Below are positions 50,126 to 53,922 of a stretch of DNA of 64,000 nucleotides, piece by piece. Position numbers and translations under genes: made by a program. Source of the stretch: Siccirubricoccus deserti (GTDB taxonomy: Bacteria > Pseudomonadota > Alphaproteobacteria > Acetobacterales > Acetobacteraceae); the NCBI RefSeq assembly GCF_014283215.1, contig NZ_JACOMF010000004.1:186001-250000 (forward strand). The letters are read 5' to 3'. Under the pieces are notes generated by a model. That model worked only from the letters and a program-made list of their open reading frames with translations, had not been told where the DNA came from and ran no database searches. Position 1 is the stretch's first letter. Each line of letters begins with the position of its first letter.

Positions 50126-50962
50126 TCAGGCCAGCAATGACAGCAGCGGGCTGCTGGCGCCGCCGCCCTCATTGGCCTTGGCCATGACGTAGCGCTGGGC
50201 GATCTGCTGCAATTTCCTCGGGTCGTTCAGATCCGCCAGCTTGAGCCGGGCGGTGATGGCCCGTGCCTGGGTTTCGACCGATTGCACCGCCATGGCATCC
50301 GGCAGCCCGAGCGCCTTGGTCACCACCCGGCGCATCACCGAGTTGCCGAGGATATTGTAGACGTCCGTCGCGCCCGGGGCATTCTTAATGAAATAGAGCG
50401 CGTCGGAGAGGCCAGCGTTCTTCTCGTCCAGCCCGCGCTGATACTGGTACTGCAGGTAGCCCTCGGTCAGCGTCTTCTGGAAGGCCGGGTCCTTCAGCGC
50501 ATCCAGCCCCTTGGTGCGCAGGTCGAGCGAGGTGGCCGCCGCCTTGAAGCGGCTGTCGAGTTTGGCGAGCAGCCCCTTGCTGTCGGCCGGATCGGCCATC
50601 AACGCCTTCTGCACCAGCCCGGGATACTGCAACTGGTCGCTCAGCCCGAGCGAGGGCAGCAGCACGGCCAGGATGCGCGGATCGCGCAGCGCCGAGTTCA
50701 CATCCTTGGCCTTGTCCAGCGCCTTCTGGAATTGCTGGAGCGCGGTGATGGTGACGGGATCCTTGCGCTCCGCGGCGACACCCCGGGCCTCGGCATCCTT
50801 CGCCTGCGCCGCCTTCAGCGCCAGCACGGCGGAGGCGGCATCGCCGGTGGTGGCCGCAGCCGGCGTCCCGCCGAACAGGCTGGATAGCAGGGCCGCGCTC
50901 AACGCCATGGCGGCGATGCTGTCAGGGGAGGTGACGACGGGCGCATTCGGGGTGCCGGGCAT
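50126..50962 (-). CDS. DUF1217 family protein, flagellum-associated type
   Basis: This 278-residue, helical, Ala/Lys-rich protein matches DUF1217: [37 protein letters not shown], then [19 protein letters not shown], and [38 protein letters not shown]. In other alphaproteobacteria the family occurs in flagellar gene clusters, but no flagellar genes are near here. A second Met at position 19 (50908) is a possible start. Its role is unknown; it lies between serC and a nucleoid-type gene. Confidence 0.82.
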
Positions 50963-51064: not shown

Positions 51065-52513
51065 TCACCCGCGCGGACGACGGCGCGCGCCGGTGCCGCG
51101 ACTGCTGGAGGCAGCACGCCCGCCCTTGGCTGCCGCGGGAGTGCGGCCTGCCGCGCCCTTCGAGGCGCCGCGCTTCGTCGCCGCGCCGTTGGCGCGCTTG
51201 GCAGCCGCACCGGCCGCAGGCTTCGTTGCCGCGCCAGTGGCGCGCTTCGCCGCCGTGCCAGTGGCACGCTTCGCCGTCGTGCCGGTCGCGCGCTTCGCCG
51301 CCGTGCCGGTCGCACGCTTCGTAGCCGTGCCAGTGGCACGCTTCGCCGTCGTGCCAGTGGTACGCTTCGCCGTCGTGCCGGTCGCGCGCTTCGTAGCCGT
51401 GCCGGTCGCGCGCTTCGAGGCGCCGCTGGCCCGCCCGCCCTTGGCGGCCGCCGCGGTGCGCCCGGCGGCTCCCTTGGCGGTGGAACGCCGCGTCGCCGCC
51501 GCTCCGGTGGCGCGCTTCGCGGTCGCGGCAGTGCCGCGCTTCGCCGTCGTGCCAGTGGCACGCTTCGCCGTCGTGCCAGTGGCACGCTTCGTCGCCGTGC
51601 CGGTCGCGCGCTTCGAGGCGCCGCTGGCCCGCCCACCCTTGGCGGCCGCCGCGGTGCGCCCGGCGGCTCCCTTGGCGGTGGAACGCCGCGTCGTTGCCGT
51701 CCCCGCCCGCTTGGCCGTGCCGGCGCTGGCCCGACCGCCCTTGGCCGCCGCCGCGGTGCGCCCGGCGGCACCGGTTGCCCGCTTGGCGGGGGTCCGGGCG
51801 GCGCCGGCAGCGGTGCGGGTCGTACGCTTCGCCGCGCCAGCCCGCGCCGCGCTCTTCGCGCCGGTGCCGCGGGTCGCGGATGCCTTGCGTGCCGCGCCGG
51901 CGCCACCGGCCTCGCGGCCGGCCTCGGCCTGCGCCGAACGTGTCGCGGTGCGGCGGGTCGGCTTGCGGACGGCTGCCGGGGTGCCGCCCTCCTCGGCCGT
52001 GGAACTGGTGCGGCGGCTGCGACGCGGCGCCGCCTCCGTCTCCGCACCATCCGCACGACGGCGCGGCGCGGCGCGGCGGCGCTTCGGCGCCGGCTCTGCC
52101 GGCATCTCGGAAGCCGGCGCCTCGGACCCGGCCTGCGGACCGTTCTCCTCGCCTTCGGCGGGCTGCGTGTCGTTGTCCTGCATCATGGCCTCCTGTTGCT
52201 GGGGGTCGTGCCCCCAATTCATCAGCGAGTAGCGCCAACGCGTCGCCGCGATGTCGCCCTCCGGTCGCTGCGCCAGATGGCGACGGATGTAGCCCACCAC
52301 CACGCGCAGGAAGTCCTCCTCCGCCTCGCCGCCTTCGAGGATCTCGAGGATGCGGCGGCCGGATTGGTGGCCCACCGCCTCATCCTCGCCTGTCGGGGTG
52401 AAGCCGACGGAGCGGCTTTCCTCGGTCTCCAGCCAGCGCCGCAACTCGGCGGCGGGGATGTTCACCAGGGCGCGGAAATCCGCGGCGATGCCCTGCGGCT
52501 CGTCCTGTTCCAT
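51065..52513 (-). CDS. DUF3140 protein with a long histone-H1-like Lys/Ala/Thr repeat tail
   Basis: This 482-residue protein has an N-terminal DUF3140 domain (about residues 5-110: FRALVNIPAAELRRWLETEE, GHQSGRRILEILEG, VVVGYIRRHLAQRPEGDIAATRWRYSLMNWGHDP) and a very long basic tail. After an acidic linker (residues 110-140) the tail consists of KRATGTTA-type octapeptide repeats and AAGRTAAAAKGGRASGASKR blocks, like histone H1 or AlgP. It probably binds DNA through the tail and compacts the nucleoid. ATG 52513 has AGAGGGAT upstream. The reading frame stays open upstream to 52666, into the DUF5872 gene's end. Repeat number may vary. Confidence 0.85.
   Translation of the reverse strand: MEQDEPQGIAADFRALVNIPAAELRRWLETEESRSVGFTPTGEDEAVGHQSGRRILEILEGGEAEEDFLRVVVGYIRRHLAQRPEGDIAATRWRYSLMNWGHDPQQQEAMMQDNDTQPAEGEENGPQAGSEAPASEMPAEPAPKRRRAAPRRRADGAETEAAPRRSRRTSSTAEEGGTPAAVRKPTRRTATRSAQAEAGREAGGAGAARKASATRGTGAKSAARAGAAKRTTRTAAGAARTPAKRATGAAGRTAAAAKGGRASAGTAKRAGTATTRRSTAKGAAGRTAAAAKGGRASGASKRATGTATKRATGTTAKRATGTTAKRGTAATAKRATGAAATRRSTAKGAAGRTAAAAKGGRASGASKRATGTATKRATGTTAKRTTGTTAKRATGTATKRATGTAAKRATGTTAKRATGTAAKRATGAATKPAAGAAAKRANGAATKRGASKGAAGRTPAAAKGGRAASSSRGTGARRRPRG
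51240..51775. repeat. Direct repeats inside the H1-like tail: 24-base units and a 198-base duplication
   Basis: A 24-base unit, roughly GTGCCAGTGGCACGCTTCGCC plus three bases, repeats many times between about 51240 and 51610 and encodes KRATGTTA on the minus strand. Two copies of a nearly identical 100-base segment, 51396-51495 and 51594-51693, are offset by 198 bases (66 codons); one difference is seen (G/A). A partial third copy starts near 51722. All periods are multiples of three, so the frame is kept. Confidence 0.85.
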
Positions 52514-52929
52514 GCGATCCCTCTGCTCCCTTGCCTTTGGGTGCCGCGCCGCTGCGGCCTTTGCCGCGACATCGGGCGGCTGGGCGGAGAACTGCCGCCC
52601 GGCGGCCTTGTCGCGCCGCTTGGCGGCGGTGCTCCGGTGTATTCCTCCTTGGCCGGCGCCTCGCACGCGGCGCGTGGGAGGTAGCGCTTACCGATCTCGC
52701 CCGATGCCTTGCCGGAGCGCGTGCCCCACGCCTCCCGCGCCCAGCGGTCGAGGTGATTGCCAGGGGCTTTCGGCCCGGCATAGCCACCGCCGCGTCGCTG
52801 GTATTCCGGCGGCGAGTTGCGCCTTGCGGGCGGAGCACTGGCCGGGCGCACCGCCGTTGTCCGCGCGGTGACCTGCGCCTTCACCGCTTCCCAAAGTGCG
52901 GGGTTGGTCTTCCGCGCAGTGCCTGGCAT
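52462..52929 (-). CDS. DUF5872-type protein with an apparent C-terminal frameshift
   Basis: The first 95 residues match DUF5872: KTNPALWEAVKAQVTA at the start and DRWAREAWGTRSGKASGEIG followed by KRYLPRAACEAPAKEEYT. After that point the family normally continues with a basic stretch ending in a KGKQFxxQPKxIAxKTA block, but here the frame turns Pro/Arg-rich to 52462. The missing end (TAAKRRDKAAGRQFSAQP) is instead found in the frame of the DUF3140 gene, upstream of its ATG. So a frameshift near 52640 has joined or split the two genes. The GGGAGGGG before ATG 52929 is good. Role unknown; likely nucleoid- or stress-related with its neighbour. Confidence 0.65.
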   Translation of the reverse strand: MPGTARKTNPALWEAVKAQVTARTTAVRPASAPPARRNSPPEYQRRGGGYAGPKAPGNHLDRWAREAWGTRSGKASGEIGKRYLPRAACEAPAKEEYTGAPPPSGATRPPGGSSPPSRPMSRQRPQRRGTQRQGSRGIAWNRTSRRASPRISAPW

Positions 52930-53055
52930 GTGCGCTGTGCCCCTCCCTGCAGGTCGTGTTGAATCTCGCAACGTCACGCCACGGCAAGCGTTCCCGCGCG
53001 CCGCATCGCGCGGCGCATTTCACCGCCGATTGCGCGCGACATGTGACCAGAGGGC

Positions 53056-53922
53056 TCAGCGCGTCGCGGTCAGGCGCAACCGCGCATCCAGCGACTCGCC
53101 CGGCAGCAGCATCGTCATCGGTCCGAAGGTGGCGAGCGCCGGGCGGTTCGGCGCATCCGGCAGATGACTCACCGGCTCGATGCAGAGCACCTTGCCGCCG
53201 GCTGGGGCGAAGAGCTGGAGGTTGTGCGCCCAGGCGCCGCTGGCTTCGATTCGCAGCGCGCAATCGGGCCGGATGATCGTCGCCACGCCATCCCAGCCGG
53301 CGAAATGCGTGTCCAGCCCCTCATAGGCGGCCTCGTCGCCATCGATGCCGGCCGTGGGCTGCGCCGCCACCGGCAGGGTCCGCGCGTCGCGGGCGAACAG
53401 CGTCGTGGCGTGCAGGTGCAGCCGCGTCCCCGGCGGCCGCAGGAAGAAGGGGTGCCAGCCGAGACCGAAGGGAAACGGCTGCGCGCCGTCATTCACCAGC
53501 CGCAGCGCGAGCGTCGCCGCGCCGCCGGCCAGCTGCAATTCGAGTCGTGTGGTGAAACGCCAGGGGATGCCGAGCGGTGCGGTATCCATCGCCTGGGTCA
53601 GCACCACATGCGCCGGCGTCGCCTGTTCCACCTGCCAGTGCGCATCGCGCACCAGGCCATGGATGGCGGTGCCATCGGCCGGGCGGTTCACCGGCAGGTG
53701 GTAGGTGGTGCCGGCAACCGGCAGCATCCCGCCATCCAGGCGATTGGCCCAGGGCGCCATGGTGAAGGCGCCACAGAAGCTGGTATTGGGGTCGGCACCA
53801 GCGGGCAGCGGCATCAGCAGGTCGATCCCGCGCCAGGTGAGCGCGGCGAAGGCGCCGCCCTGCGCCGGCAACAGCGCCGCCGACCATTCACCGGCTTCCA
53901 GCGCGACTCGGTCAGCCGCCAT
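53056..53922 (-). CDS. Aldose 1-epimerase family protein (mutarotase)
   Basis: This 288-residue protein has the galactose mutarotase beta-sandwich: FCGAFTMAPWANRLDGG near residue 50, the catalytic histidine in AIHGLVRDAHW near 90, GLGWHPFFLRPPG with a second histidine near 155, and a Glu in LCIEPVSHLPDAPN near the end. It interconverts sugar anomers. It follows a uronate dehydrogenase-like gene by three bases, so it may prepare the beta-anomer of a uronate or sugar lactone for that enzyme. Confidence 0.88.
   Translation of the reverse strand: MAADRVALEAGEWSAALLPAQGGAFAALTWRGIDLLMPLPAGADPNTSFCGAFTMAPWANRLDGGMLPVAGTTYHLPVNRPADGTAIHGLVRDAHWQVEQATPAHVVLTQAMDTAPLGIPWRFTTRLELQLAGGAATLALRLVNDGAQPFPFGLGWHPFFLRPPGTRLHLHATTLFARDARTLPVAAQPTAGIDGDEAAYEGLDTHFAGWDGVATIIRPDCALRIEASGAWAHNLQLFAPAGGKVLCIEPVSHLPDAPNRPALATFGPMTMLLPGESLDARLRLTATR

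Follow-up and report, generated by a model that had tools for sequence, protein, structure and literature searches.

We consider it likely that the 64,000-nucleotide stretch of Siccirubricoccus deserti DNA analyzed here (the window) carries an eroded Roseomonadaceae fusion gene, probably one of the general stress response, whose DUF5872 half has decayed and whose remaining part, a DUF3140 domain with a long basic tail, is a predicted EcfG-induced DNA binder. The ancestor of this gene would have encoded a single protein in which DUF5872 was followed by DUF3140 and by a long unstructured K/R/A/G/T tail. In the literature searched, DUF3140 is named in no paper, DUF5872 is named in one, on an algal virus, and no description of the fusion family was found. 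The locus is worth reporting for its architecture, its putative stress promoter and its natural range of copies, from intact through eroded to lost. Two domains with almost no literature are linked here to this promoter as well as a basic H1-like tail, which gives them a testable role, and the occurrence of all three versions within one clade provides a natural experiment for separating the role of DUF5872 from that of the DUF3140-tail part.

Table 1 Features of the locus, in window positions
Feature	Position	Strand	Basis or content
EcfG-type (general stress) promoter motif GGAAC-N16-CGTT	52970..52994	(-)	strict match, conserved in relatives
DUF5872 remnant, piece 1, frame of the ATG at 52929	52867..52929	(-)	residues 1-21 of intact relatives
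DUF5872 remnant, piece 2, shifted frame (that of the tail)	52808..52861	(-)	DNGGAPGQCSARKAQLAA, residues 24-41; six-frame score
DUF5872 remnant, piece 3, frame of piece 1 again	52642..52806	(-)	EYQRRGGGY..KEE, residues 43-97
DUF5872 remnant, piece 4, frame of DUF3140 and tail	52540..52636	(-)	RSTAAKRRDKAAGRQFSAQP.., residues 99-130
Predicted start of the surviving protein (Shine-Dalgarno-like run 52532-52518, ATG 52513-52511)	52511..52532	(-)	start codon conservation
Surviving open frame, DUF3140 plus basic tail, 482 aa	51065..52513	(-)	ORF calling and domain match
DUF3140 domain (PF11338)	52220..52480	(-)	profile match above cut-off
Basic low-complexity H1-like tail, 378 aa	51065..52201	(-)	composition

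The surviving frame and its surroundings

A first-pass annotation of this DNA had placed the start of a DUF5872 protein at 52929 and a block belonging to it, TAAKRRDKAAGRQFSAQP, in a different frame that runs open via the ATG at 52513 as far as the stop codon at 51065; both observations hold on the minus strand. The DUF3140 domain is matched over the full profile with 85.7-85.9 bits (Pfam cut-off 25), and none of its 48 clade-invariant columns is broken in the alignment with relatives. The 378-aa tail comprises 22% K+R, 66% A+G+T+S and 1% hydrophobic residues, with a net charge of +69, and thereby combines the features of H1-like or AlgP-type tails, being long, basic, of low complexity, poor in hydrophobic residues and built of repeats. 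A 24-bp array runs within its coding sequence at 51169-51615, and over this array a 198-bp unit is tandemly duplicated at 51291-51693 with 91% identity, so that tail length is probably variable. In several relatives, contigs break within the tail.

The flanking genes at 53056-53922 and 50126-50962 are an aldose-1-epimerase gene and a DUF1217 gene. Epimerase-like sequence also lies upstream of the locus in G232, G023 and G113, and in the same-genus genome G001 the two flanking genes adjoin each other, with the fusion missing.

Probable decay of the DUF5872 half

Comparison of the three frames with intact relatives resolved the DUF5872 region into four pieces separated by three frame changes (Table 1). 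The second piece is the top scorer against the family among 127,894 six-frame window positions (65.7 vs 31.8 for the runner-up), and the ATG's own frame scores -4.6 at the same segment. In addition, a TAG interrupts the frame of the tail at about 52690, still within the DUF5872 region. The single frameshift near 52640 proposed by the first-pass annotation therefore gives way to a more complex picture, in which one slip or one error cannot restore the fusion here. A single-slip model was ruled out by the two further frame changes.

The pieces have also diverged at conserved residues. When the window's DUF5872 pieces were aligned with 42 intact sequences, six of the 51 columns conserved to 95% or more in those sequences were broken (D9N, W32C, D58G, E82K, R90C and L93P), the highest number among the 43 sequences and above that of every intact one; all six positions are invariant in a 26-sequence alignment. 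Against the Pfam DUF5872 model (PF19197), the broken frame reaches 13.1 bits, below the cut-off of 27.5. The fused relatives L009 (14.8 bits) and L010 (not listed) likewise fall under this cut-off, and the two-gene relative L003 exceeds it with 30.7 bits. A profile built from intact homologues gives 96.9 and 35.9 bits for the pieces in the window. We take this to mean that the pieces are homologous to the family but have decayed, and that they diverge from the Pfam model.

Decay of the DUF5872 half in this genome, which the first-pass annotation had listed as the plain alternative, is the favoured and best reading because three frame changes coincide with six substitutions at invariant residues, and on this reading the frameshift amounts to ordinary decay. 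When the 64 kb were decoded with a codon model, the DUF5872 region fell into the non-coding state; the other frame changes inspected, by eye, fit gene borders.

Two other explanations would leave a full fusion product in the living strain, and the absence of any homopolymer of at least four bases at the three frame junctions speaks against both. The first is that sequencing or assembly introduced several indel and substitution errors within DUF5872 of a gene that is in fact intact. This would fit a draft assembly of 275 contigs and the unbroken frame of the same-genus relative G002, yet we judge it unlikely: the three frame changes fall within about 230 bases and are accompanied by the six substitutions, no damage is seen in DUF3140 or in either flanking gene, inspection by eye left no other break in the 64-kb decoding unassignable to a gene border, and erosion arose independently in relatives. 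The second is programmed ribosomal frameshifting, to which the DUF3140-tail frame, open upstream as far as about 52690, would lend itself. Such a mechanism calls for a slippery site at which a single defined slip yields a fused product, a pattern that the window gene lacks; three shifts would be required, the intact relatives require none, and invariant DUF5872 residues would be missing from the product. The ribosomal slip envisaged in the first-pass annotation is thus hardly credible.

Distribution and origin of the fusion

The first-pass annotation had also envisaged a single protein of roughly 620 residues with DUF5872, DUF3140 and an H1-like tail. No such product is encoded as one frame in the window's genome, but the architecture is real in its relatives: twelve Roseomonadaceae genomes carry DUF5872-DUF3140-basic tail as one open frame, namely G002 (same genus), G026, G342, G268, G196, G146, G321, G298, G236, G190 (matching Roseicella aerolata), G294 (matching Paracraurococcus) and G062 (matching Belnapia mucosa). 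Those that are complete measure 574-642 aa from the ATG; in G002, G342, G268 and G236 the contig ends inside the tail. In the DUF3140 tree, a clade of 17 rows (support 96/93) holds all 12 tail-bearing fusions, together with four eroded loci (the window, G137, G232 and G113) and G023, which has no DUF5872.

Relatives with two separate intact genes, which the first-pass annotation had named as evidence against a genuine fusion, do exist among more distant family members (L003, L007 and others), where DUF5872 and DUF3140 are adjacent; the closest relatives, however, are fused. This two-gene form (PF19197 then PF11338 in L003 and L007) has the same domains in the same order as the window's clade. 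In L003, the stop of DUF5872 and the start of DUF3140 overlap, and a Rho_N/SAP-like segment forms the end of DUF5872. The window's clade, by comparison, carries the genes in fused form, without the Rho_N/SAP-like end and with a basic tail behind DUF3140. The ancestor of the fusion would accordingly resemble the distant relatives, with adjacent genes for DUF5872 and then DUF3140; fusion would have cost DUF5872 its stop and its Rho_N/SAP-like end but left the original start of DUF3140 in place. Elsewhere in the family, other genera have a basic tail on DUF3140 beside a separate DUF5872 gene (L064, L067, L068, L071, L073 and L115), so the tail would be older than, or independent of, the fusion.

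A thirteenth fusion, L081 (G301), joins DUF5872 to DUF3140 without a tail and sits on a long branch outside the main clade; it is possibly an independent fusion. In G271 (L107), a relative of G301, both domains are degraded.

Repeated loss of the DUF5872 half

Within the clade, erosion or loss of the DUF5872 half has recurred several times besides the window gene, in G137, G232, G113 and G023. G137 and G113 retain degraded DUF5872 remnants, G232 keeps a short relic only, and DUF5872 is absent from the locus in G023; in all four, the DUF3140-tail frame is open as far as the contig reaches. Eroded loci adjoin intact ones in the DUF3140 tree, G137 lying by G026 and G232 by Paracraurococcus. Profile searches found no second DUF5872 copy in the window's genome, and no other intact DUF5872 in that genome or in G137, G113 and G023. 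G232, whose fused copy lost DUF5872, encodes a separate DUF5872 with a Rho_N/SAP-like end (L134, G232:C133). The recurring loss suggests that DUF5872 is an accessory module.

The window's own genus forms a graded series, with G002 intact, the front half of the window gene decayed, and both gene and promoter absent from G001, where 353 bp separate the flanking matches at the syntenic site. The state of G001, and the accelerated change of the intact G002 copy itself (9 of 65 clade-invariant columns), would agree with a locus that is on its way out altogether, DUF3140-tail included, with nothing useful made in this genus. We regard such wholesale loss as improbable in view of the unbroken clade-invariant DUF3140 columns of the window, its 482-codon frame, which is still open, and its perfect promoter motif.

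Promoter and predicted stress regulation

The GGAAC-N16-CGTT motif is the sole strict match in the 64 kb on both strands. It is located 65 bases upstream of the DUF5872 start in the window and 54-72 bases upstream in all 12 tail-bearing fusions, and it is also kept in the eroded loci G232, G137, G113 and G023; the GGAAC-N16/17-CGTT pattern of the EcfG regulon is therefore found upstream of the gene in the 12 fusions, the window and these four loci. All nine motif letters are invariant in 16 aligned loci, against a mean of 87% in the spacer and 57-62% in the flanks. Genome-wide, the EcfG motif shows no enrichment (38 sites vs 46 for the reversed control), and the promoter argument therefore rests on conservation at this one site.

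The window's genome encodes candidate regulators, with a PhyR protein (PhyR_sigma2 and a Response_reg receiver domain) beside two ECF sigma genes, and PhyR-family matches were obtained in 7/7 relatives tested. In Sphingomonas melonis, the EcfG motif is GGAAC-N17-20-GTT, and Ku and topoisomerase IB are listed among the EcfG-dependent genes (PMC6599016). The window gene resembles members of the EcfG/PhyR general stress regulon of Alphaproteobacteria in its perfect upstream motif and in the PhyR and ECF sigma genes of its genome. From motif conservation at this site we infer transcription by EcfG; the gene probably belongs to the general stress response, which apparently also switches on the fusion in relatives.

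A probable internal start ahead of DUF3140

Despite a variable linker, an ATG (11) or GTG (1) is positioned 2-14 codons ahead of DUF3140 in 12/12 tail-bearing fusions. At the internal start of the window, the Shine-Dalgarno energy is -6.9 (synonymous-shuffle p 0.05). In 8/12 fusions this energy beats synonymous recodings (p<0.05), five of the eight being close relatives; the signal is not significant in L002, L010, L013 and L102, and is absent in L002. The comparison supports a retained start codon and moderately supports a full initiation site. Because the fusions keep the ATG or GTG, usually behind a Shine-Dalgarno-like run, the DUF3140-tail part can probably be produced alone, and use of the internal start appears plausible from its conservation. 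In the window lineage, the product still expressed would most likely be the DUF3140-tail protein from the ATG at 52513. A broader proposal is that one gene yields a stress-induced nucleoid protein in two nested forms, a long DUF5872-DUF3140-tail protein and a short DUF3140-tail protein, and that the front has been lost repeatedly because the short form suffices; we offer it tentatively, as somewhat short of an even chance.

Predicted function and related systems

By analogy, the surviving protein would most likely be a stress-induced, DNA-binding, nucleoid-coating protein of the AlgP/H1-like style. AlgP of Pseudomonas aeruginosa is an H1-like KPAA-repeat protein whose tail is reported to bind DNA (PMC9239181), and on this analogy the tail of the window protein probably binds DNA non-specifically. 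The two proteins are alike in layout: in AlgP, the N-terminal part is helical, and behind it comes a long, disordered repeat tail rich in lysine and alanine. They differ in that the repeats of the window protein are of the AAGRTAAAAKGGRA and AKRATGT types, and in that its tail draws charge from R as well as K. In the nucleoid role proposed for the DUF3140-tail part, the tail would coat or bridge DNA non-specifically, DUF3140 would add a specific function, and stress induction would increase the amount of tail protein when DNA needs protection.

Predicted models of both domains are helical (DUF3140, pLDDT 90; DUF5872, pLDDT 84 and pTM 0.51). Searches of these models against the PDB returned no usable fold match, a result that does not in itself make them new folds; a sequence search of solved structures gave no match, nor did NCBIfam.

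Nocardioides and Variovorax also have DUF3140, there as a small protein of its own whose gene adjoins that of a partner. The partner there is a TUDOR domain protein rather than DUF5872, and the tail is absent. The gene directly upstream of DUF3140 in these genera encodes Hva1_TUDOR (PF11160; L018:2744-2965 and L035:2697-2957), which suggests a second DUF3140 partner.
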